A program made the position numbers and the translations under genes. Positions 3,326-29,588 of a stretch of DNA of 37,286 nucleotides are shown here, in pieces. The stretch's first letter is position 1. The number at the start of each line of letters is the position of its first letter. Source of the stretch: Bacillota bacterium (lineage in GTDB: Bacteria; Bacillota; Clostridia; Oscillospirales; Acutalibacteraceae); NCBI GenBank assembly GCA_029008595.1, contig JAQXJH010000132.1, forward strand, positions 1 to 37,286, read 5' to 3'. The notes below the pieces were generated by a model that did not search any database, had not been told where the DNA came from, and worked only from the letters and a program-made list of their open reading frames with translations.

Positions 3326-3916
3326 TTATTCGGGCGAAACCGCACGGCCCAATTTGCGGCGGATCCGCTGCAGAGCGTTATCAACCGACTTTTCTGTCAG
3401 CCCCAAACGGGAAGCAACTTCCCGATAGGATCGGCCGCCAAGATAACCTTCCAGCACCTGCCGTTCCATCGGCGAAAGGTGCGTCTGCACTGCCTGCAGC
3501 ACATGCCGCAGCCGCTCACGCCCAAGGAACACATTCTCAGGGTCTGCAGAAGGGAACGCAGAAGAATCTTCGAGATCATCCAGCGGAACAGACTCGTTGA
3601 GCGGAAGATTTTTTTGCCGGCCCTGCGCGCGCAGCGCCGAAAGGATCCTGTGCTCAATACAAACCGAAGCATACGCCTGAAACGGCGTTCCGCTTGCGGG
3701 ATCATAATGCGCGACTGCATCCATCAAACCGATTGCGCCTTCCTGAAGCAGGTCGTCCCGATCGCCGTGCAGCCGGGGCGCCAGACGCGAAACCTTGCCG
3801 CCGATCAGCGGCAGCAGCGAAAGAAACAACTGGGCAAACGCGTCGCCGTCCCCCTGCCTGGCCAGTTCTGCCAGCCTGGCAGCATCAGAAAAAGATTCCT
3901 GTGCAGAACCGAGCAC
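3326..3916 (-). CDS. Sigma-70 family RNA polymerase sigma factor, SigH (Spo0H)-like
   Basis: This 196-residue protein has sigma regions 2 and 4 but lacks region 1.1 and a full region 3. Region 2 shows RDDLLQEGAIGLMDAVAHYDP and the stretch from FQAYASVCIEHRI to RQKNLPLNESVPLDD, closely resembling SigH of Bacillus. Region 4 shows LSPMERQVLEGYLGGRSY and the helix-turn-helix EVASRLGLTEKSVDNALQRI, including the KS(I/V)DNALQR signature of SigH. The start is GTG at 3916, with GAGGTGA seven bases upstream. It has its own consensus SigA promoter. SigH starts the sporulation programme, which fits the germination genes nearby. The gene is slightly short and is not beside rpmG/secE as is usual for sigH, so a SigH-like paralogue is possible. 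Confidence 0.85.
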   Translation of the reverse strand: MLGSAQESFSDAARLAELARQGDGDAFAQLFLSLLPLIGGKVSRLAPRLHGDRDDLLQEGAIGLMDAVAHYDPASGTPFQAYASVCIEHRILSALRAQGRQKNLPLNESVPLDDLEDSSAFPSADPENVFLGRERLRHVLQAVQTHLSPMERQVLEGYLGGRSYREVASRLGLTEKSVDNALQRIRRKLGRAVSPE

Positions 3917-3953
3917 CTGCCGATCACCTCAAACCAGTTCTGACTACTGTTCA

Positions 3954-3982
3954 ATCATACCTCACTGCTCAATACTTGTCAA
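3954..3982 (-). promoter_or_regulatory. SigA promoter of the SigH-like gene
   Basis: TTGACA (3982-3977), a 17-base spacer and TATGAT (3959-3954) on the minus strand. The DNA upstream (about 3990-4140) is strikingly AT-rich with runs of A and T, which may act as an UP element. I see no gene in that AT-rich stretch. Confidence 0.82.
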
Positions 3983-4150
3983 CCCGTTTTTATTCATTTT
4001 GTTAAAAAAATTTTTTGAATGTCGTCCCGCATTGAACAATTTGCAGAATATAGAATATTATTCATTAAAAAAATCAAAAAATCTCGATTTCAGGCGAAAT
4101 ATGCCGGTTATATATTCAAAAAAACGTATATTTCAGTCTGCAAAAACCAT

Positions 4151-4184
4151 AAAAAACACCGGCCCGCTTCAACGGCAGGCCGGC
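4151..4184 (-). terminator. Terminator of pfkA
   Basis: On the minus strand GCCGGCCTGC and GCGGGCCGGT pair (two wobble pairs) around a 7-base loop and are followed by GTTTTTTAT. It starts 16 bases after the pfkA stop codon. Confidence 0.88.
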
Positions 4185-4200
4185 GAACACGCTGAAAAGA

Positions 4201-5169
4201 TCAGATCGAAATCACACGGGCAATATTCAGCAGATTTTTATCCACCGTTTTTTTCATTGCAAGGCCCTCGGTAATATCGCAATCGTAGATACGGCCGTCC
4301 TTCATGCCGACAATGCGGTTGCTTTTGCCTTCTTTCAGCAGCTGCACCGCGTAATAGCCCATTTCGCTGGCCACAACACGGTCACGCAGCGAGGGAGAAC
4401 CGCCGCGCTGCACGTGGCCGAGAATGCAGCCGCGCGTTTCGACGCCGGTTTTTTTCTGAATTTCTGCAACGATCTCATCCACATGGCCGACGCCCTCGGC
4501 GACCACAATGATAAAATGCTGCTTTCCGGTCGCCTGGGAACGCTTCATCGGCTCGACGACTTCCCGATCCAGATCAAACGGCTCTTCCGGCACAAGGATC
4601 GCCGTCGCTCCGACCGCAATACCGACATTCAGCGCAATATGACCGGCATGACGGCCCATCACCTCGACTACCGTGCAGCGGTCGTGAGACTGGGAGGTAT
4701 CACGAATCTTATCGACCATCTCAACCGCGGTGTTCATTGCGGTATCATAGCCGATGGTATATTCCGTACTGGAAATATCGTTGTCGATCGTACCCGGCAG
4801 ACCGACGCAATGGATTCCTTCCGCGCAAAGATCGCGCGCGCCGCGGTAGGAACCGTCTCCGCCGATGACGACCAGGCCGTCGATCCCCAGTTCCCGGCAG
4901 TTTGCCGCGGCCTTCTTGACGCCCTCGGGCGTATTGAATTCCGGGCTGCGGGCAGTATAAAGCATGGTTCCGCCCAGCTGAATAATATTTGACACGCTGC
5001 GCAGATCCATTTTGACAACGTCCTTATGCAGCAAACCGTTGTATCCTCTGTATACGCCGAGCACCTCAATGCCGGCGGCGATCGCAGAACGGGTGACCGA
5101 ACGGATCGCGGCATTCATCCCCGGAGCATCTCCGCCGCTCGTCAGTACTCCGATTTTCTTCACTCCCAT
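4201..5169 (-). CDS. pfkA: ATP-dependent 6-phosphofructokinase
   Basis: This enzyme phosphorylates fructose 6-phosphate to fructose 1,6-bisphosphate, the committed step of glycolysis. At 322 residues it has the classic bacterial length. Motifs seen are VLTSGGDAPGMNAAIRSV near the start, YRGYNGLL, IGGDGSYRGA, LPGTIDNDI and the SQSHDRCTVVEVMGRHAGHIAL block. The glycines in GGDGS and PGTIDND are those of ATP-dependent enzymes; pyrophosphate-dependent ones carry Asp and Lys there. One small deviation is SSTE where GTD is common after TIDNDI. The ATG at 5169 follows AGGAGG by nine bases. It has its own promoter and terminator, and lies just downstream of dnaE as in many Clostridia. Confidence 0.96.
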   Translation of the reverse strand: MGVKKIGVLTSGGDAPGMNAAIRSVTRSAIAAGIEVLGVYRGYNGLLHKDVVKMDLRSVSNIIQLGGTMLYTARSPEFNTPEGVKKAAANCRELGIDGLVVIGGDGSYRGARDLCAEGIHCVGLPGTIDNDISSTEYTIGYDTAMNTAVEMVDKIRDTSQSHDRCTVVEVMGRHAGHIALNVGIAVGATAILVPEEPFDLDREVVEPMKRSQATGKQHFIIVVAEGVGHVDEIVAEIQKKTGVETRGCILGHVQRGGSPSLRDRVVASEMGYYAVQLLKEGKSNRIVGMKDGRIYDCDITEGLAMKKTVDKNLLNIARVISI

Positions 5170-5205
5170 GAGAACAAGCCTCCTGTTGTTAAATTCCCAA
5201 CAAAC

Positions 5206-5234
5206 ATTATAATGGCTATTCTGCGGCTTGGCAA
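5206..5234 (-). promoter_or_regulatory. SigA promoter of pfkA
   Basis: TTGCCA (5234-5229), a 17-base spacer and a perfect TATAAT (5211-5206) on the minus strand, ending about 37 bases before the start codon. I see no terminator between dnaE and this promoter, so read-through from dnaE may add to it. Confidence 0.83.
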
Positions 5235-5291
5235 GCAAGTTTCCGCAAAATCGCTCTTCTTTCTGTGAAATCGACAAAAGCAACAAAAATG

Positions 5292-8200
5292 CTAATCCTT
5301 TATGGCAACATTTTTTTCACCCAACACGCGTTTCAGTTCGGAGATCATTGGATCGTTCAGCATCACCCACAGCGTTCTCGGCGCCAGCACCAGCTTTTTT
5401 TGTCCGGTGAGGTAAAAATAAACCGGCGTCTGTCCGTCAAAAATCTCCAGCAAATTGCGGGCTTTCTCATATTGTTCCCCGTCGAGCGCCGAAATACGCA
5501 GATAAAGGCCGAACCGTTCACTGTGCGGCTGCGCTGCGGGCGGAACCGCCTGTGCCGGTCTCTCCTTTGCCGGAGCCGGCGGCGGATCGTATGCAACAAA
5601 ATTACCTGTCTGCGCAACATTTTTATCGGGTGGCGGAAGTACCTTTTCACACACGATCTTGGCATCCTCATCCTCGCGCAGACTCACCCTGCCCTGAATT
5701 TCGACCACGCGCGTTTCCTGCAGCAGCGCCGAGGATTCCTGCAGCGTTTTTGGAAAAACGAGCATTTCGATCGCGCCGGAAAGATCCTCCACCGTTACAA
5801 ACGCCATGGTCGCGCTGCTTTTGGTCACCTTTGTTTTCAGCGCCGACACAATACAGAGCAGCGTCACGCGGTCGCCGTCGTGATAGAGAGAATTTTCCTC
5901 CTTTGCGCTCTGCACGATCTCACCGATCGCCGCCGCGCCGATCTCTGCTGCCGCATCGCGGTATTCCATCATCGGATGGCCGGAAAGGTACATTCCCGTA
6001 ATATCCTTTTCCATGCCCAGCAGCTCCGGCATCGTGAATTCATTCACCTGCGGCATGACAAACGAATCCTTCTCCGGCTCGCCCCCCATACTCCCGAACA
6101 GGCTGATCTGCCCTTCCAGATTGCGCCGGCGGGCATCGTCCAGATCGTTGAGCACCGCGTCGGCCGCAGTCAGCATCTGCCGGCGGTTGCTGCCGAGACC
6201 GTCCAGCGCACCGCATTTGATCAGGCTTTCCAGCGCGCGGCGGTTCAGGTCTCCGCCGTACATCCGGCTGCAGAAATCATAAAACGAAGCAAACGGACGC
6301 TTTTTCCGTTCCTCCACGATCTGGCGGACAAAGCTTCTTCCCAGATTTTTTGCGGCCAGCAGCCCGAAGCGGATCTTTTCTCCGCTGACCGTAAAACCGG
6401 CGTCGCTTTCGTTCACATCCGGCGGAAGAACCGGGATCCCGAGGCGCTGGCATTCGGTGATATACTCCACCACCTTGTTGGTATCATCGAGCACGCTGGT
6501 CAGCAGCGCCGCCATGAATTCGCGCGGATAATGCACCTTCAGGTACGCCGTCTGGTACGAAACATAGGCGTAGGCCGCAGCATGCGGTTTATTGAACGCA
6601 TAGGAAGCGAAGTTTTCCATTTCCCCCACGATCTTCATGGCGCTTGCTTCATCCACGCCGCGCTTCAGGCAGCCTTCCACAACGGACCTTCCGTTTTCCT
6701 CCAGTCCGTGGACAAAAATGTACCGTTCGCGTTCCATTACGTCCTTTTTCTTTTTCGCCATTGCGCGCCTGACAATATCAGCCCGGCCGAGCGAATAGCC
6801 CGCCAGATCGCGGAAGATCTGCATAATCTGCTCCTGATAGACCATGCAGCCGTAGGTGACCTTCAGGATCGGTTCCAGCATGGGATGCAGATAAGTCACC
6901 ATTTCGGGATGATGCCGGTTCTGCACATAGCGCGGGATCGAATCCATCGGCCCGGGACGATACAGCGACACGACGGCGATCAGATCCTCCAAGCCCTCCG
7001 GTCCGAGCTGCATCAGCACATTGCGCATACCGGCCGATTCAAACTGGAAGACGCCTTCGGTGGTGCCTTCGGACATCATTTTGAAAACAGCCGGATCGTC
7101 TTCCGGAATTCTGTCCGCAGCAAAATCCGGTTCGCTGCGGCGGATCATGCGCTCGGCGTCGCTGATTACCGTCAGGGTGCGCAGACCGAGAAAATCCATC
7201 TTGAGCAGCCCCAACTCCTCCAGCGTCGTCATCGGGAACTGCGTCACAATGGATTCATCGTTCTTGGAAAGCGGCACATAGTCCATGACCGGCCGTTCGG
7301 TAATGACGACGCCGGCCGCGTGCTTGGAGGCGTGGCGCGGCATTCCTTCCAGCTTGCGTGCCATATCGATCAGCTCGCGGATCTCCGGATCGTTTCCGTA
7401 AAAGCTGCGCAGCTCGGCAGAAAGATCGAGCGCCTTCTGCAGCGTGATATTCAGCTCCATCGGCACCAGCTTTGCCACGGCGTCCACGCGCGCATACGGC
7501 ATCCCCAGCGCACGGCCCACGTCGCGGATGGCGCCTCTGGCCGCCATGGTGCCGAAGGTAATGATCTGTGCCACATGATCCGCACCGTATTTGCGCACCA
7601 CATAATCGATCACCTCCTGCCGCCGTTCATAGCAGAAGTCGACGTCAAAATCCGGCATACTGACGCGTTCCGGATTGAGAAACCGCTCAAACAGAAGATC
7701 GTATTTCATCGGATCGATTCCGGTGATGCCGATGCAGTATGCCGCGATGGAGGCCGCACCGGAGCCGCGCCCCGGCCCGACCGGGATCCCGACCGATTTT
7801 GCGTACGCCACATAGTCATGCACGATCAGGTAATAATCGACATAGCCCATGCGCTCTATGGTTTTCAGCTCGTATTCCAGCCGGTCGATATGGCTCTGCG
7901 GCGGATTCGGGCCGTAGATCCGGTAAAGCCCCGCATAACACTGTTCCCGGAAGTATTCGGCATGATCCTGCCCGTTCGGCACATCAAAATGCGGCAGCTT
8001 GATCCGGCCGAATTCAAACTCCACGTTGCAGCGCTCGGCAATTTTTACGGTATTGTCGGCTGCCTCCGGTACGGCGGGAAACAGTGCGCGCATCTCCTCT
8101 TCGCTTTTCAGATAGAATTCGTCCGACCCGAACTCCATGGTGTCGTCATCATTGACCGTGTGGTTAGTCTGGATACAGAGCAGCACATGGTGCATTTTGC

Positions 8201-21889: not shown

Positions 21890-21936
21890 ACACCCCTCAG
21901 AAGGCGATTCTGCGATCTGTATTCTTTCTTGTCCGT

Positions 21937-21970
21937 CCGCCTGTCCGGGAATGCTTCGACAGACAGGCGG
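21937..21970. other. Hairpin in the lysS-MATE intergenic region
   Basis: CCGCCTGTC (21937-21945) pairs perfectly with GACAGGCGG (21962-21970) around a 16-base loop. No T-run follows, so it is not a normal terminator. It lies in the 192-base leader of the MATE gene. I do not recognise a known riboswitch class here. Confidence 0.35.
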
Positions 21971-22081
21971 CACAGACAGGATCCTGACAAGAGGCCTGTG
22001 GCTGAAAAGCTGCGGGTCTCTGCCTGTTTCCGGGCATTTGCTGCAGCTGCCCCTGTTAAGATCATGATCGGGAGTAAGAAA

Positions 22082-23440
22082 ATGAAAACGCTGAATCTGA
22101 CCGAGGGCTCCATTTTTCAAAAGCTGATCTTCTTCTCTCTGCCGATGATTGCGGGCAATCTGCTTCAGCAGGTTTACAACCTTGCCGATACGCTGATTGT
22201 GGGAAGATATATCGGTCCGGACGCGCTCGCATCCGTCGGCTCGGCCTATACGCTGATGATCTTTATCACATCCATTATTATCGGGCTTTGTATGGGGAGC
22301 GGAGCGTTTTTCTCCGCGGATCACGGAAAAAAAGACGAGGCACAGCTGAAAGAAGATATCCGGTATTCATTCTGGTTCATTCTGTCCGTTTCTGCTGTAA
22401 TTTATCTGATCATTTTTCCGGGCATGGAAATCATTCTGAAGCTGCTTCAAACCCCCGCAGAGCTGATGGATATGACCAGAGAATACGTCACTGTCGTATT
22501 CACCGGAATCATTTTTGTATTCCTCTATAACTTTTTTTCCTATCTGCTCCGGTCAACGGGAAACTCCGTTGTACCGCTGATCTTTCTGGCCGTGTCCGCT
22601 GCGATCAATATCATGCTGGATATCTGGTTTATTGCGGGACTGAAGCTCGGCGTCAGAGGCGCGGCGCTGGCTACGGTCATCGCACAGGCGGTATCCGGAG
22701 CGGGAATTTCCGTTTATTCCTTGATCCGGCTGCCCGTTTTAAGATTCCGCAAAGAAGACCTCAAATGGAACCCGCGCAGAATGAAAGAAATCATTCTGAA
22801 TGACGTCGCCACGGGAATGCAGCAATCGATCATGAATTTCGGTATTCTGTTGATTCAGGGGCTGGTCAACAGCTTTGGAACTGTTATCATGGCTTCCTTT
22901 GCCGCAGCGGTGAAGATCGACACGATTGCCTATATGCCCGCACAGGAATTCGGAAACGCCTATTCCCTGTTTATCTCACAGAATTACGGCGCAAAAAAAG
23001 AGAGCCGCATCCGGTCAGGAACAAAAATCGCCCTGCTCTCATCGGTCGCGTTCTGTGCTGCGGTCTCTGTGTTCGTTTTTGTATTTGCCGACCGGCTGAT
23101 GAATTTGTTTGTCTCTTCTTCCGAAACGCAGATCATTGCGGAGGGGGCAAAATATCTGCGGATCGAAGGCGCCATGTATCTCGGGATCGGCATTCTTTTT
23201 CTGTGGTACGGCTATTTCCGGGGAGTCAACCTGCCGCACATTTCCCTGATCCTTACCGTTATTTCTTTGGGGACACGGGTGATCCTCTCGTATGCCCTTG
23301 CGCCGCATACCGCTCTGGGAGCATCCGCAATCTGGTTATCGATCCCGATCGGCTGGGTTTTAGCCGATGCAGCCGGGTATCTTTTTTATCAAAAGAGCAA
23401 GGCAGCAAGTATCAAAGCCAATAATACAAAAAGATCCTGA
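22082..23440 (+). CDS. MATE family efflux transporter
   Basis: This is a multidrug and toxic compound extrusion transporter, an ion-coupled exporter in the cytoplasmic membrane. It has 452 residues and about twelve membrane segments, the family norm. The start region FFSLPMIAGNLLQQVYNLADTLIVGRYIGPDALASVG is a textbook MATE N-terminus. The second half begins with a matching repeat near ILNDVATGMQQSIMNFGILLIQG. The ATG at 22082 was chosen because GGGAG lies about nine bases before it; upstream in-frame sequence (from 21929) does not resemble the family. The stop codon lies within the stem of the shared terminator. Substrate unknown. Confidence 0.92.
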   Translation: MKTLNLTEGSIFQKLIFFSLPMIAGNLLQQVYNLADTLIVGRYIGPDALASVGSAYTLMIFITSIIIGLCMGSGAFFSADHGKKDEAQLKEDIRYSFWFILSVSAVIYLIIFPGMEIILKLLQTPAELMDMTREYVTVVFTGIIFVFLYNFFSYLLRSTGNSVVPLIFLAVSAAINIMLDIWFIAGLKLGVRGAALATVIAQAVSGAGISVYSLIRLPVLRFRKEDLKWNPRRMKEIILNDVATGMQQSIMNFGILLIQGLVNSFGTVIMASFAAAVKIDTIAYMPAQEFGNAYSLFISQNYGAKKESRIRSGTKIALLSSVAFCAAVSVFVFVFADRLMNLFVSSSETQIIAEGAKYLRIEGAMYLGIGILFLWYGYFRGVNLPHISLILTVISLGTRVILSYALAPHTALGASAIWLSIPIGWVLADAAGYLFYQKSKAASIKANNTKRS

Positions 23441-23471: not shown

Positions 23472-25985
23472 TCATGATTTCAGGCCTGCATCAGACAATT
23501 TTTTCTTTCCCGGAAGAATGTCCTCCTCTTCCTCCGGCAGCTCGCACAGCAGCGGAAAACTGACGCTGCCGTCGGCGGCAAACCGGATCGTCTGTATCTC
23601 ATGCGGCGCAAAATGAACCGCCGCGCGGTGCTGCATAAAAGAAAGCTCCGCATCCGTTTCCCTTCCGTCCGTCTCATAGGCACGGATCAGAAGATCTTCG
23701 CTGTCCTCGGACTGCTTGACCACACGGATCAGAACGTTGCCTGCCGAGGAACGCGCCAGAGAATCGCTCAGCGGAAGATTCCCGTCGTGATAGGTCTCAT
23801 AAACCACCGCAGGCTGCTGCACCAGCTCCTGCGCGTTTCTGGTGGGTACCTCCGGCCGAAGCTCTCCGTCATGCGGAAGGATATGATATTCGAATTCGTG
23901 GATCCCGAGATCCATCGGTTCCGTAAAAGCATCCTTGATGCCGAAATGATCTGCATATCCGGCGCTGCGGACGGCAATGAACCGCCCCGTGTTTCCGTCC
24001 GCGCTGTAGCTGCCGGAACCATTTGTCACCACCGAAACGCCGCACGGACGGTCGCTTTCGTCCGTTCCCGAAATATCGAACCACAGCTGCCCGGCCTCTT
24101 CCATTCCGTTACACTCTTTTTCGATGCTGCCGTACGGAATCTCATACACCACCCGGGGATTCTGCACCGCCGCCGGGAACGCGAATTTCAGGATCCGGAA
24201 CGGCTCCTGCCAGTTGACCCGGACGGAAACGCGGATACACGGGTCATCCCGGAAGATCCTGAAATCCTGGATCAGGGTGGAACGGCGGAAGGATGACCGC
24301 GCCCGCAGCGTCAGGAACAGCGGGCCGCGGTCCAGCAGCTCGAGCGAAGCCTCTCCGAACCGGCCAACCACGGAATCCAGATATTCCTGCCCGTGCGCCC
24401 AGGTATCATTCTGAAAATCTTCCAGCACCTCGGCGACAGCCGCTTCTCCTGAAAAGACCTCACGCTGATGCCGCTTGTCAAACACCGAAGCAAGCGCACC
24501 GCTGGCGGGATCAAAGCGCAGCCGGAACCAGTCGTTTTCCAACAGCGCGCTGTTCCCCTTCAGCATCCGTTCGCTGACCGGGTTCACCTGCGGCAGATGG
24601 TGGTACAGATACACCGTCCGGTAGCCCATCGGCGGAAGCTGCAGCTGCAGCACTCCGACAAAATCATCCTTTCCGGAATTGCAGGTCTTGTCCGCCCGGA
24701 TTCGCTGGAATGCCACCGGAGCATCGTTCTCATCCAGCGCTCCGGTAATATCCTGCGTCAGTTTCACGGTAACGGCGGATTCCCATGCGTTCGGGTTAAA
24801 GATCACCACCGGGGAGCCGCCGATCTCATTTTCCCAGGTCTTCCAGTCAAAGTGGCGGTCGACCGCAAAATCCCGGTTCCGTTTGGTATTGATCTTCCAG
24901 GAGATCCGCTGCAGCGCATGATTCATCAGCTCGGAAGAGATCTTCAGCGCTTCTCCGTGAAATTCCCTTGCGTCCTCATACGCCTCTTTCAGGCAGCATC
25001 CGCCCAGAATATCGTGGAACTGATTGAACAGGACGTCCTCCCAGGCATGTTCCACCGCCTGCCGGTCGTATGCCATCCCGGCCAGCCGGCTTGCCGCTGT
25101 CATCCACTTTTCTGCCGCAAGCAGGCGGTTTTCGCTGCGTCGGTTGTTGCGCTTGATCTCGCTGTTGGCCGAATAGCACCCGATGGCATGGTGTTGCAGG
25201 TCTCCGGTCACCGTTTCGGCAATGCTCCCCGACGCATTCAGCCCGGCAAAAAAGCTTTCGGGAGAGGCGTAGCTCAGCTGTGGATCCTGCTTCATCAATT
25301 CCTGTATCCGGTTCAGCAGGGCTATCGTCGGCCCGCCGCCGTGGTTCCCGACGCCGTAAAACAGCATTTTCGGCTCCTGATCCTCTTCGGCGCGGCTGCG
25401 GATGACTTCACATTTCCACGCGACCGCATCATCCGACGCAGTCGCGTAGCCGGTGGGAATCCGATAGGTAAGAATTTTTGTGCCGTCGATCCCTTCCCAC
25501 AGAAACGTGTCCCGGTTCAGCTGTTTTTCCTTCTGTTCCGGGCGCATCATCACATAACCGGACATCCCGCTTTTCTTCAGCAGCTGCGGCAACGATGCAT
25601 TGTGCCCGAAGCTATCTACATTATAACCGAAAGCCGCGATTTTTCCAAATTTTTTATAAAAATATCTTTGCCCGTATAAGGCATGACGGGCAAAGGATTC
25701 CCCGCAGGGAAGATTGCAGTCCGGTTGCAGCCACCAGCCCCCGGCGATCGCCCAGCGCCCCTCGGCAACCCGGCGGCGGATCTCCTCAAACATTTCCGGC
25801 TCGTTTTCTTCCACCCATTTGTAATAGCACGCGCCGGCCGCCGTGAATACATAGCCGTCAAATTCCTTCATCCTGTCCAGCGCGGAACGGAAGGTTGCCT
25901 TGATCTCTGCAAAACCTTCCTGCCATTGCCACAGCCACGCCGGATCCAGATGAGCATTCCCGATCAGATAGATCCTCTGCTTCAT
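23472..25985 (-). CDS. Glycoside hydrolase family 38 alpha-mannosidase
   Basis: This enzyme is predicted to remove alpha-linked mannose from glycans such as N-glycan fragments. It has 837 residues from the ATG at 25985. The GH38 opening IYLIGNAHLDPAWLWQWQEG carries the metal-binding His12 and Asp14. The nucleophile region FGYNVDSFGHNASLPQLLKKSG lies near residue 124. Another conserved block is VLFNQFHDILGGCCLKEAYEDA. The C-terminal half is the beta-rich domain typical of the family. No signal peptide is present, so it acts in the cytoplasm on imported oligosaccharides. GAGGAG lies nine bases before the ATG; the open frame extends to 26156 but that part does not resemble the family. No sugar transporter is adjacent. 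Confidence 0.93.
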   Translation of the reverse strand: MKQRIYLIGNAHLDPAWLWQWQEGFAEIKATFRSALDRMKEFDGYVFTAAGACYYKWVEENEPEMFEEIRRRVAEGRWAIAGGWWLQPDCNLPCGESFARHALYGQRYFYKKFGKIAAFGYNVDSFGHNASLPQLLKKSGMSGYVMMRPEQKEKQLNRDTFLWEGIDGTKILTYRIPTGYATASDDAVAWKCEVIRSRAEEDQEPKMLFYGVGNHGGGPTIALLNRIQELMKQDPQLSYASPESFFAGLNASGSIAETVTGDLQHHAIGCYSANSEIKRNNRRSENRLLAAEKWMTAASRLAGMAYDRQAVEHAWEDVLFNQFHDILGGCCLKEAYEDAREFHGEALKISSELMNHALQRISWKINTKRNRDFAVDRHFDWKTWENEIGGSPVVIFNPNAWESAVTVKLTQDITGALDENDAPVAFQRIRADKTCNSGKDDFVGVLQLQLPPMGYRTVYLYHHLPQVNPVSERMLKGNSALLENDWFRLRFDPASGALASVFDKRHQREVFSGEAAVAEVLEDFQNDTWAHGQEYLDSVVGRFGEASLELLDRGPLFLTLRARSSFRRSTLIQDFRIFRDDPCIRVSVRVNWQEPFRILKFAFPAAVQNPRVVYEIPYGSIEKECNGMEEAGQLWFDISGTDESDRPCGVSVVTNGSGSYSADGNTGRFIAVRSAGYADHFGIKDAFTEPMDLGIHEFEYHILPHDGELRPEVPTRNAQELVQQPAVVYETYHDGNLPLSDSLARSSAGNVLIRVVKQSEDSEDLLIRAYETDGRETDAELSFMQHRAAVHFAPHEIQTIRFAADGSVSFPLLCELPEEEEDILPGKKKLSDAGLKS

Positions 25986-26508
25986 ATCCCGTCGCTCCTC
26001 TCTCCATCTTTTCACGCCCCGCTCCCGTTTCAGAATCCGCCGCGGAGCGTTTCCACCGTTCTGCCGGACTGCTTCATCTCTTTCCGCCTTCCGCGCAAAA
26101 CCTGTTTGCTTCTGCAGATACTGTATCATAACGCCCTGTGCGTTTTCAATGGACAAATTCTTGACCGCATTGATAAAATCGGACGTACGCCCGGTACGGC
26201 CGCCGCCTCCGCCGTACCGGCGCGGAACGTCTCCGGGGTTCGGCGCAGAACCGGCAATTCTGGAACAGAAATCCGCCGGAAAGCTCGAAAATCTGCAATT
26301 TCGTGATATAATAGAAGCGCAAAGTCCGTTCTGCGGGACAGATCATCGTGTAGAATCAGGGAAGAAAGATAAAACCGGATCACTGCAGCGCTCCGAAAAA
26401 GAAGCCCCTCGGCAAAATTGTGCTGTGCAATCAACCGGATTGATACGGCAAAGGCCTTTCCGGGTTATTTGATCCGGCCGGCAAATACAGAGGACAGGAT
26501 GTAAGATT
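25986..26508. other. 523-base divergent intergenic region
   Basis: This gap separates the mannosidase gene (minus) from the MoxR operon (plus). It holds an extended -10 promoter for the plus strand near 26304-26312 and a perfect 9-bp inverted repeat (26191-26199 with 26212-26220) around a 12-base GC-rich loop. On the minus strand a weak TTGAAA and TACAGT pair near 26110-26145 could serve the mannosidase. No convincing gene is seen in it. The MoxR leader would be about 190 bases long. Confidence 0.5.
26304..26312 (+). promoter_or_regulatory. Extended -10 promoter upstream of the MoxR operon
   Basis: TGATATAAT gives a perfect TATAAT preceded by TGN. The -35 region (CTCGAA at 17 bases) is poor, so it would depend on the extended -10 or an activator. 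Confidence 0.5.
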
Positions 26509-27597
26509 ATGAGCGAAATAGAATCGGGCTTATACGCCATCCATGTTGACCGCATGGTGGAGATGCTTTCAAAAGCATACATTTCTCTGGTCGAGACGAA
26601 AACGCCGTTTAAAAAGTTCCCCTCCGTTATGCTGTGGGGGCCTCCCGGCGTCGGAAAGTCTCAGGGTGTCAGAGAAATTGCGGAAACGATCGAAACGAGA
26701 ACAAGCAAAAGGGTCGCGATCACCGACGTTCGTCTGCTGCTGTTCAATCCTGTTGATTTGAGAGGGATCCCAACGGCAAACGAAGATAAAACGCTGGCGG
26801 TATGGTTAAAACCGAAAATTTTTCAGATGGACGACAGCGATCAGACGATCAACATCCTGTTTCTGGACGAGATCTCTGCCGCTCCGCCCTCCGTTCAATC
26901 CGCAGCGTATCAGATTGCCTTGGACAGAACGATCGGAGAACATAAGCTTCCGGATAATTGTATCGTCATTGCCGCGGGCAACCGCGTTACCGACAAGTCG
27001 GTCGCATATAATATGCCGAAAGCTCTGGCAAACCGCCTGTGTCATTTTGAAATCAGGGGAGATTCCGCCTCGTGGCATAACTGGGCTGTCAAAAACGGCG
27101 TACATGAATTCGTCGTCGGCTATCTGGAATACAATCCGTCTGCGCTGATGCGGTTTGACCCCACCGGCACCGGTCTGGCTTTCCCGACTCCGCGCTCCTG
27201 GGAAATGGTCAGCAATATTCTGAATACCGTCTCAGACGATCCGGAATCGGTCTATCCGATGATCGTGGGCTGTATCGGCCACAGCGCCGCAGGCAATTTC
27301 AGAACATGGACGGAGCTGTATCAGACCATGCCGCCGGTGGAAGATATTTTTGCCGGTAAAGAAACCGCCGTACCGAAAGCGCCGGAGCTGCTGATCGCGC
27401 TCCGCTCGGCAATGACAGCCTACGCCAGAAAGCACCCCGACAAGCGCCTGATCGACCATTCCGTTGATTATGCCTGCAAATTGCCCTGGGCCTTCCGCGG
27501 CAAACTCCTGCACGATTACTGCTGTATTCCCGAGGTCTGCCCGATCATCCGGGAAAACGATGTTTTCAAAACGGCTATGAGGAATGAGCAAAAATGA
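26509..27597 (+). CDS. MoxR-type AAA+ ATPase
   Basis: This 362-residue protein is a MoxR-like AAA+ ATPase, a class that acts as a chaperone or remodeller together with a VWA-domain partner. Walker A WGPPGVGKSQ lies at about 43-52, Walker B INILFLDEIS at 114-123 and the sensor 1 region CIVIAAGNRV at 151-160. The PVDLRGIPT segment (about 81-89) is typical of the subfamily in which the ATPase is paired with a DUF2201 protein. The C-terminal lid region begins near the arginine-rich ALANRLCHFEI. GGATG lies about ten bases before the ATG. Its stop codon overlaps the start of the VWA gene by four bases. The client of this machine is not known. Confidence 0.92.
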   Translation: MSEIESGLYAIHVDRMVEMLSKAYISLVETKTPFKKFPSVMLWGPPGVGKSQGVREIAETIETRTSKRVAITDVRLLLFNPVDLRGIPTANEDKTLAVWLKPKIFQMDDSDQTINILFLDEISAAPPSVQSAAYQIALDRTIGEHKLPDNCIVIAAGNRVTDKSVAYNMPKALANRLCHFEIRGDSASWHNWAVKNGVHEFVVGYLEYNPSALMRFDPTGTGLAFPTPRSWEMVSNILNTVSDDPESVYPMIVGCIGHSAAGNFRTWTELYQTMPPVEDIFAGKETAVPKAPELLIALRSAMTAYARKHPDKRLIDHSVDYACKLPWAFRGKLLHDYCCIPEVCPIIRENDVFKTAMRNEQK

Positions 27598-28955
27598 CGG
27601 AACAGCGAAAACAGCGCCTGAAAAGACAGCTGCAGGAGTCGCGGTACAGACTGGATCAGCTGGATGCAGCATTCGCCGCACCGCTCAGAAAAATGCTTTT
27701 TGCGGCGACAAAGGATGTCAAAAGAATTTCCACCAATGGCAGCTGCATTTATTTTGATCCCGATTGGCTGCAGAAGCTGGGACACACGGAGCTGGATTTT
27801 ATTCTCTCCCATCAACTGATGCACATTGCGCTGGGCCATATTGACCGGCCGAAATATTATTCCGGCGACCGTTTTCATCTGGCGTGCGATATTGTTGCAA
27901 ATTCGCATCTTGAGCTGCTCGGCTGGAACTACGATCTGCTGCCTCATATCGGAAGAATCTTTCACGAAACATTTTTTCCTGCGCAGCCGGGACGCCTTCT
28001 CACAGCACAGGAGGCTCTTCACTGCGTTCCTTTTGACCCTGCCGCAATGGAGCCGGGCGCCAGAAACAATTATATGATCGATGCGGAATCCTGGTGGGAT
28101 CGGAAGCAGGATCGCGGCGAGAACTGCGTGATCGTTCTTTGCCCCGGAGATGAAGACCCGGAGGATCTGCCCCGCGGGGAACGGACGGCCGGAGGCGGTC
28201 ACTGTTTTGTGAAAAAAGAATTCTTCCGCAAAGACGGAATGCGCATCACAAAAAATGAACTTCCCGAAAACAATCAGGCCCCTGCCTCCGGCAGTTGGGA
28301 TCAATGCGCTGCCAACGAGCTCAGGATCCTGAGAAGCGCCGTCAGAAAAGATGCCGGAACCGGCTTTGAAGAGGCTTCGGAAGAGCGGCTCTGGCAAAGG
28401 ACGGATCCGGCGGATCTTGATTGGAGAAAACTGCTGGACAGTTTCATTCAGGAGGAGGTCTGCGATTATTCCTTTACCCCTCCGGACAGAAGATTCCTGG
28501 ACTCCGGGTTCTTCCTCCCGGACTGCGGTATGCTTACGGAAAATCCGAAAAAAGTATTGTTTATGGCGGACACCTCAGGTTCCGTTGATACTGTTATGCT
28601 GTCGGCCGTTTACGGGGAAATATGCAGCGCGCTGACGCAATTCAACGGCGGGTTAGCCGGTATTCTGGGATTTTTCGATATGCAGGTGTATCCCCCGGTT
28701 CCTTTTTCCAATATCGGCGATCTGCTGCAGATCCGGCCGCGCGGCGGCGGAACAAGTTTCCATTGCGTCTTTGATTATATCAGAAGAAATATGTCGGATG
28801 ATCCGCCTGTGAATATTGTGATTTTCACGGATGGGCAGGCGGAATTTCCGGATGAGTCGGCCGCCGGTAACATCCCCGTTTTATGGCTGTTTTCAGACAG
28901 AAGGGTCGTTCCCCCCTGGGGGAAATATGCTTATGTCGGGAGCGCAGGGAAATGA
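27594..28955 (+). CDS. DUF2201 VWA-domain protein with metallopeptidase-like N-terminus
   Basis: This 453-residue protein is the expected partner of the upstream MoxR ATPase. The N-terminal part (about 1-150) resembles the putative metallopeptidase domain of DUF2201, with LSHQLMHIALGH at residues 71-82 and the conserved ACDIVAN at 97-103. The family pattern is HExxH; here it reads H73-Q-L-M-H77, so the catalytic glutamate is replaced by glutamine. A variable middle follows. The C-terminal VWA domain keeps a full MIDAS site: DTSGS (326-330), GGGTSF (about 384-389) and FTDG (about 411-414). It overlaps the ATPase gene by four bases (ATGA), so the two are translated together. The metal-binding VWA likely recognises the client or adaptor. 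Confidence 0.88.
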   Translation: MTEQRKQRLKRQLQESRYRLDQLDAAFAAPLRKMLFAATKDVKRISTNGSCIYFDPDWLQKLGHTELDFILSHQLMHIALGHIDRPKYYSGDRFHLACDIVANSHLELLGWNYDLLPHIGRIFHETFFPAQPGRLLTAQEALHCVPFDPAAMEPGARNNYMIDAESWWDRKQDRGENCVIVLCPGDEDPEDLPRGERTAGGGHCFVKKEFFRKDGMRITKNELPENNQAPASGSWDQCAANELRILRSAVRKDAGTGFEEASEERLWQRTDPADLDWRKLLDSFIQEEVCDYSFTPPDRRFLDSGFFLPDCGMLTENPKKVLFMADTSGSVDTVMLSAVYGEICSALTQFNGGLAGILGFFDMQVYPPVPFSNIGDLLQIRPRGGGTSFHCVFDYIRRNMSDDPPVNIVIFTDGQAEFPDESAAGNIPVLWLFSDRRVVPPWGKYAYVGSAGK

Positions 28956-29051
28956 CGCCGGTCTGCAAATATCGTATCCGCAAAACAGGCGGCTCCGACT
29001 CTGTCCGCCCGTTTCTGACACAACGCCTATGATTGAAACAGGAGGTCAATG

Positions 29052-29489
29052 ATGGAATTTGGATGGAACAATCTTTTCGGCGCGGCAATCGTCGTGATCA
29101 TGCTGATCCCGAATCTGATATTCGCACGGAAACATACAGACCAAAAAAATCTTTGCACCAACCGCGCCATGAACCTCATGGAGCAGATCGGACGCCGCGG
29201 CTGCCTCATCCTGATGTGGCTGCCGCTCGTTGTCGGGAAATTCGGCTTTGCCGGGATTCCGGCGTTTCTGATCTACGTGATTGGCAACGGCATTCTGCTT
29301 TTCGTTTATCTGATCCTCTGGGCGTTCTATTTCAAAAGCAGCAGCGTCAAAACGGCGATGGCGCTTGCCGTCGTTCCCGTCTGCATCTTCCTGCTGAGCG
29401 GGCTTCTGCTCCGCCATTGGCTTCTGAGTGCATCCGCGGTGCTGTTCGGGGTCGGTCATATCTATGTTACCAAAGCCAATCAGAAATAA
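29052..29489 (+). CDS. Small four-helix membrane protein, unknown function
   Basis: This 145-residue protein has about four membrane segments: LFGAAIVVIMLIPNLIFA, LILMWLPLVVGKFGF, FLIYVIGNGILLFVYLILWAF, and VVPVCIFLLSGLLLRHWLL. A charged loop (RKHTDQKNLCTNRAMNLMEQ) follows the first helix. I do not recognise a characterised family. The second of two tandem ATGs (29052) was chosen, since AGGAGG lies six bases before it. It follows the VWA gene by 96 bases in the same direction, with no terminator seen between, so it may belong to the MoxR/VWA unit and could be a membrane anchor or client. That link is inference from position only. Confidence 0.82.
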   Translation: MEFGWNNLFGAAIVVIMLIPNLIFARKHTDQKNLCTNRAMNLMEQIGRRGCLILMWLPLVVGKFGFAGIPAFLIYVIGNGILLFVYLILWAFYFKSSSVKTAMALAVVPVCIFLLSGLLLRHWLLSASAVLFGVGHIYVTKANQK

Positions 29490-29539: not shown

Positions 29540-29582
29540 AAAAAAAACTCCGCTTTTGCGAACGGTTTCACAAAAGCGGAGT
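29540..29582 (-). terminator. Terminator of rny
   Basis: A perfect 12-bp stem (ACTCCGCTTTTG and complement) around a 12-base loop is followed, on the minus strand, by seven or more Ts (29546-29540). It lies just after the rny stop codon and may also slow plus-strand transcripts from the membrane-protein gene. Confidence 0.88.
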
Positions 29583-29588
29583 CTGATT

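Follow-up and report, generated by a model that had tools for sequence, protein, structure and literature searches.

This study concerns a pair of overlapping genes in a 37,286-nucleotide stretch of DNA (hereafter the window) from a Bacillota bacterium of the family Acutalibacteraceae (assembly GCA_029008595.1, contig JAQXJH010000132.1). The genes encode a MoxR-like AAA+ ATPase and a protein in which a metallopeptidase-like domain is fused to a VWA-like domain. In most relatives the pair is directly preceded by a gene for an SNF2-like helicase, the three forming a triad; the window belongs to a small clade in which this helicase is lacking and in which most members have exchanged the catalytic Glu of the zinc motif for Gln. 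Judging from the sequences, the chances are about even that the window encodes an AAA+ remodelling pair operating without a DNA translocase, the protease domain of which has probably turned into a binding module and the client of which is encoded elsewhere. The features referred to below are the following.

26509..27597, + strand: gene for the MoxR-like AAA+ ATPase, 362 amino acids (from AAA_3, phrog_1297, and the MoxR proteins of relatives)
27594..28955, + strand: gene for the fused metallopeptidase-like and VWA-like protein, 453 amino acids (PF13203 at residues 11-305, PF09967 at residues 323-446)
27594..27597, + strand: overlap of the moxR and VWA genes, ATGA, 4 bases (from the sequence)
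27810..27824, + strand: HQLMH, an altered HExxH motif, residues 73-77, with Gln at 74 (77-protein alignment)
28569..28583, + strand: metal-ion-dependent adhesion site (MIDAS) motif DTSGS, residues 326-330 (77-protein alignment)
25986..26508, no strand: intergenic stretch, the site of the SNF2-like helicase gene in most relatives, with none here (tblastn)
29049..29489, + strand: open reading frame (ORF) for a membrane protein, 146 amino acids, judged to lie outside the conserved unit (relatives located elsewhere)

The missing helicase partner

Clustering of the ORFs around relatives of the pair revealed that moxR adjoins the VWA gene and that a third gene lies directly upstream of moxR. Where complete, its product counts 1,080-1,315 residues with SNF2-related and helicase C domains, and it matches phrog_10089 ('DarB-like antirestriction', E 3.4e-235). 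The relatives were gathered by scanning a genome collection with a nine-protein VWA alignment, by which 182 were confirmed and the best 80 kept. A first comparison covered 90 loci (these 80, nine others, and the window), and 12 further loci came from family and class searches. Some are duplicates: L090, L099, and L139 share contigs with L044, L045, and L046, and L162 duplicates L085.

Among the 90 loci, 82 (79 of 87 without duplicates) have the helicase gene just ahead of moxR and in the same orientation, at gaps of -5 to 179 bp; in five the contig breaks off inside moxR or no more than 80 bp from it, and three (the window, L061, and L062) have no helicase. The further set adds ten loci with a helicase (nine distinct) and two without, L161 and L170. 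In total, the 98 distinct loci, window included, divide into 88 with a helicase, five cut by a contig edge, and five without. The helicase-bearing group includes L169, where the helicase lies at about 890 bp from moxR, and L088, with a partial helicase match only.

In the window, 523 bp separate moxR from a divergent upstream gene that starts at 25985 and that, by our reading of its sequence, encodes an alpha-mannosidase. No decayed helicase was recovered from this gap: tblastn of ten helicase ORFs from relatives against the window gave a best E of 0.017, inside moxR. The helicase is also absent from the window genome as a whole (99.13% complete), a genome-wide search returning none at E<=1. 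Equivalent searches of the genomes carrying L061, L062, L161, and L170 found no helicase, and the controls G296, G284, and G647 gave E 0. Around the pair in four phage and two plasmid neighbourhoods no helicase is annotated either, many of the genes there being unnamed.

The five helicase-less loci have no neighbour in common apart from the pair itself, ORFs that are short or antisense, and a single pair of ORFs on the sense strand. The window ORF at 21929-23440 and an ORF of L161 (read as a MATE-type transporter) share 29.5% identity, which we judged to be coincidence. Directly upstream of its pair, L061 carries three genes in a row (3678-6891) for an AAA/STAND-like ATPase and for 404- and 273-residue proteins without a clear family, with a SIMPL-domain gene after the pair; the upstream trio was not seen at the other helicase-less loci.

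The altered zinc motif

In zincins, the Glu of HExxH serves as the general base. The window's zinc motif reads HQLMH, with Gln standing in the place of this catalytic residue. Among 77 aligned proteins (out of 81, namely the window and 80 loci; L110, L117, L073, and L076 were excluded), 75 have Glu at position 74 and two, the window and L061, have Gln; His 73, 77, and 82 are invariant in all 77. L161 and L170 also carry Gln, so that the helicase-less loci with Gln are the window, L061, L161, and L170; helicase-less L062 keeps Glu. All three His are retained in the window, L061, and L161, and in L170 the third is changed as well (HIIHGD).

The main copies at the helicase-bearing loci have Glu without exception (88/88). 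The Glu pattern was found in 86 of the 90 loci, cut loci and L062 counted; L068 and L140 were missed by the pattern and confirmed separately. Because these main copies and all six phage or plasmid homologues examined (6/6) have Glu, Gln is the derived state. The Gln codons differ, the window and L061 using CAA and CAG.

In two triads (L108 6395-7330 and L118 7070-8008), moxR and the VWA gene are separated by an additional gene. By reading of its translation, the N-terminal half is a metallopeptidase domain and the C-terminal half resembles the MoxR end. With HEMLH as its zinc motif in L118 and HQMLH in L108, this gene seems to show a further exchange of Glu for Gln.

Lineage and selection

In a tree of MoxR and VWA proteins (28 of 30 picked rows), the five helicase-less pairs form one clade with support 100/99, which spans several genera and families and has long stem branches (0.64 and 0.84 changes per column). 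L170 is outermost within it, and L062 (Glu) is placed beside L161 (Gln); therefore, by our own count, position 74 changed at least twice. The window and L061 share 79% amino-acid identity in MoxR and 69% in the VWA protein. Their synonymous sites are saturated (proportion of synonymous differences, pS, 0.90 and 0.87, respectively) and the proportion of nonsynonymous differences (pN) is 0.12 and 0.19; because pN lies far below the saturated pS, the pair is maintained and not decaying.

The helicase-bearing rows are united in a single clade in 0% of the 200 bootstrap trees, and forcing them together is not rejected by the approximately unbiased (AU) test (p-AU 0.203; 32 of 34 picked rows for both analyses). 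FastTree, run on 81 rows after dropping the duplicates L090, L099, and L139 and the cut gene of L049, places helicase-bearing L053 outside all other rows (0.95-0.97).

Domains and motifs of the two proteins

The ATPase scores 37.2 bits against AAA_3 (Pfam cut-off 27), matches phrog_1297 in PHROGs (E 7.5e-86), and is 40-59% identical to the MoxR proteins of nine relatives. In the ten-sequence alignment, Walker A (GPPGVGKS), Walker B (LFLDE), and the subsequent AAA+ motifs occupy mostly invariant columns, among them G47, K50, S51, D120, and E121. No PDB sequence matched the MoxR profile at E<=0.001, and with the bpMoxR profile the window ATPase reaches 14.3 bits, below the cut-off of 27.

Its partner is more than a plain VWA protein, and the preliminary description of the locus, made from the sequence alone, overlooked the fused metallopeptidase. 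PF13203 (DUF2201_N, putative metallopeptidase) covers residues 11-305 with 83.0 bits (cut-off 23.2), PF09967 (VWA-like domain, DUF2201) covers residues 323-446 with 35.9 bits (cut-off 26.4), and the protein matches phrog_1314 (E 2.5e-43, PHROGs). The MIDAS residues D326, S328, S330, and D413 are identical in 77/77 aligned proteins. The same description had reported a four-base overlap of the two genes and intact nucleotide-binding and MIDAS motifs, all of which we find as well, and its picture of an intact, conserved ATPase/VWA machine whose operon contains no obvious client holds. Its judgement that the machine looks active is borne out for the ATPase and MIDAS motifs; it fails for the protease domain, where the catalytic Glu has become Gln.

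In the AlphaFold model of the 453-residue protein, confidence is high for about residues 1-160 and 321-450 and poor in between, with a mean predicted local distance difference test (pLDDT) score of 78.7 and a predicted template modelling (pTM) score of 0.56. The C-terminal part of the model matches VWA domains in the PDB, with Z values reaching 12.7 over 133 residues; this domain (residues 314-452) takes up the matches of the structure comparison, and the Foldseek matches include NorQD (9qhe). The profile of the 77 proteins matches the solved MJ1213 (4qhf and others) over the zinc-motif region with E 9.5e-4, and M48-type peptidases weakly. We take MJ1213 to be 'selecase', a relative of the minigluzincins. 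On the basis of just these two matches, from Pfam and to MJ1213, the N-terminal domain is a putative zincin.

Proposed mode of action

We propose that MoxR would assemble into an AAA+ ring that remodels proteins with ATP, using the VWA protein as its adaptor, and that the adaptor's N-terminal domain would descend from a zinc peptidase. In the usual triad form, the machine probably acts on DNA or DNA-bound proteins, because a helicase is encoded directly before moxR, and its metallopeptidase probably cuts what the ATPase presents, because HExxH is present. Since the window lacks both the helicase and HExxH, its machine most likely serves to remodel or hold a client, which it would bind without cutting and without being loaded on DNA. 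The relic of the zinc domain in this lineage could act as a substrate- or partner-binding part, perhaps with zinc or peptide binding retained. The client does not appear to be encoded next door and would have to come from elsewhere in the genome.

Several points weigh against this reading. Only five helicase-less loci are known, a small sample, and the contrast in Gln (4/5 helicase-less against 0/88 helicase-bearing loci; Fisher p 1.7e-6, a naive count) is overstated by its p value because the five share ancestry. The losses of helicase and Glu are not strictly coupled, since L062 keeps HExxH, and Gln either originated repeatedly or reverted. Because the AU test keeps the alternative order, the window branch may never have had the helicase at all, rather than having lost it. 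Modelled alone and without an alignment, moreover, the N-terminal domain reaches a pLDDT of 38.6 and gives no usable fold.

MoxR/VWA pairs occur commonly, and for only a few of them has a client been identified. The comparison gives two handles that are hidden in the window alone, namely the usual SNF2-like helicase partner and a natural branch without helicase and mostly without the catalytic Glu. Together these form a natural set of variants (helicase with Glu, no helicase with Glu, and no helicase with Gln) with which the function of the VWA-linked metallopeptidase domain can be probed, in a family that comprises uncharacterised bacterial, phage, and plasmid machines.

Alternative explanations

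The zinc domain might still be a peptidase, Gln leaving a weak or differently activated activity in a two-part protease machine such as has been proposed for the phage versions; we deem this unlikely. The window, L061, and L161 retain each of the three His, so that a metal may still bind, and the PF13203 domain still scores 83 bits in the window. On the other hand, the residue that is gone is the general base itself, and the additional change of the third His in L170 is what one expects if catalysis is not under selection.

Alternatively, the pair, like the triad, could be an anti-phage or anti-plasmid system, which we consider unlikely. Its sparse spread among genomes would fit: hits came from 3/60 and 23/394 genomes at E<=1e-3, and from 16/398 and 9/391 at E<=1e-20. 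The surroundings of the triads, moreover, hint at a defence-rich setting. WYL-domain regulators are the commonest flanking family, with a cluster in 25 of 90 loci (one member confirmed as WYL); of 126 flanking ORFs (from 135, nine having been excluded, mainly for size), 12 match WYL in Pfam and 13 in PADLOC, which also gave single matches to AbiEii, a retron reverse transcriptase, and CARF-HEPN. These counts come without a control set of flanking genes. For the window pair itself, PADLOC had no match to the VWA protein and nothing beyond partial AAA matches to the ATPase, the best of them DolB (E 8.6e-7 over 42 residues), and the pair is embedded among ordinary chromosomal genes (rny and, by our own reading, lysS and thrS). 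When the triad loci (L044-L053, L063-L140) are listed with duplicates retained, WYL is found in 25/90, LigA (DNA ligase) in nine, and a SpoVK-like AAA protein in 12.

A more far-reaching idea extends the remodelling reading to the triad as a whole, and we regard it as speculative and decidedly unlikely. By analogy, the triad could be a DNA-translocating proteolytic machine, in which one operon provides an SNF2 motor, a ring-shaped AAA+ unfoldase, and a VWA adaptor bearing a minigluzincin-like protease, and which strips or cuts proteins from DNA as a bacterial counterpart of Wss1/SPRTN-Cdc48. The window branch would have shed the motor, silenced the protease, and become a pure chaperone, with L062 as an intermediate or a reversion. 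If true, this would be a natural protease-to-chaperone conversion. As described (eLife 2015, PMC4559962), Wss1/SPRTN with Cdc48 likewise combines an AAA+ segregase with a minigluzincin-type metalloprotease on DNA-bound proteins, a likeness that is a functional analogy only. Cdc48 belongs to a different AAA+ family, the sequence link is limited to the weak MJ1213 profile match, and the window branch has neither the DNA motor nor the catalytic Glu.

It is very unlikely that the pair is a decaying remnant of a triad after helicase loss. Helicase and catalytic Glu are indeed both gone, and the stem branches of the clade are long; both frames are nonetheless intact and under strong purifying selection between the window and L061, the MIDAS and AAA+ motifs are kept, and the pair persists across genera and families.

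Least credible of all is the suggestion in the preliminary description that the downstream membrane protein anchors the pair or is its client: the membrane gene shares the strand of the VWA gene and begins 93 bp after it, the gap holding no terminator-like site on the + strand, but a relative occurs in none of the 89 + 12 other pair loci. Among 60 related genomes, the VWA protein is found in three and a relative of the membrane protein in ten. The two occur together only in the window genome and in G015, in the latter on separate contigs (C10 and C11), and in 8/60 genomes the membrane protein is present without the pair. The three genes thus do not stay together in other genomes, the outcome by which the preliminary description itself would have its idea refuted, and the membrane protein, which has only a sub-threshold Vps55 match, is a chance neighbour. 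That its gene is the only close neighbour is correct for the window; as a clue to the client it carries no information, since the conserved neighbour in relatives is the upstream helicase gene.

Relation to known systems

The pair type as such is already known, and the helicase-less, mostly pseudo-peptidase branch is a small maintained branch of it. A MoxR and metallopeptidase-vWA pair has been described in group 2.2 jumbo phages and proposed to function in virion assembly (Viruses 2021, PMC7824862). It consists of the same two adjacent proteins, a MoxR AAA+ protein and a vWA protein that carries a metallopeptidase at its N terminus, and the window proteins match the corresponding phrog_1297/phrog_1314 as well as phage loci by tblastn; a peptide-pattern comparison with viral contigs gave no close relatives. 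The window pair differs in being chromosomal and in its HQLMH, as the phage and plasmid versions checked have HExxH (6/6). As far as the consulted section of PMC7824862 on the jumbo-phage pair goes, it draws no link to a helicase. In cyanophage S-TIM5 (L142 2487-5122), genes for Hsp20, the MoxR-like ATPase, and the metallopeptidase-vWA protein stand in a row, with a virion structural gene soon after; the vWA gene is annotated there as 'HNH endonuclease', apparently a wrong transferred name.

Conflict systems offer a second comparison. MoxR-vWA-centred ternary systems (VMAP; eLife 2020, PMC7159879) and a MoxR-vWA-iSTAND arrangement (NAR 2026, PMC12839542) have been described, which, like the helicase triads, combine MoxR and vWA with a third component. 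Here the third component is an SNF2-like helicase, itself absent from the window, and the window ATPase stays below the bpMoxR cut-off. According to PMC7159879, vWA-fused peptidase domains in conflict systems are often catalytically inactive (about 70% of effector-position caspase domains), and metallopeptidases are rare in the MoxR-vWA ones. A literature search that covered few subscription papers came upon no account of either the helicase triad or the pseudo-peptidase branch, an absence that is weak evidence.

In the pairs NorQ-NorD and RavA-ViaA, a MoxR ATPase and its VWA partner work on other protein complexes and remodel them. Together with CoxD-CoxE they share the combination of a MoxR ATPase and a VWA partner with the window, and presumably the same remodelling principle. 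To our knowledge, none of these VWA partners carries a metallopeptidase domain. An NCBIfam scan at E<=0.1 matched no equivalog of RavA-ViaA, NorQ-NorD, or CoxD-CoxE, the existence of a model for each being unverified, and no respiratory or denitrification client lies near the window pair.

Flanking sequence

The proposal that a long leader and a weak -35 make expression conditional finds no support: the region upstream of moxR has four promoter-like sites against 2.8 +/- 1.7 in shuffles, not above chance, and no Rfam family reaches its threshold there. Beyond the membrane ORF, the RNase Y gene (rny) follows on the opposite strand. Just after rny, between it and the membrane ORF, the - strand carries a strong terminator-like hairpin of 18 pairs (29545-29584).

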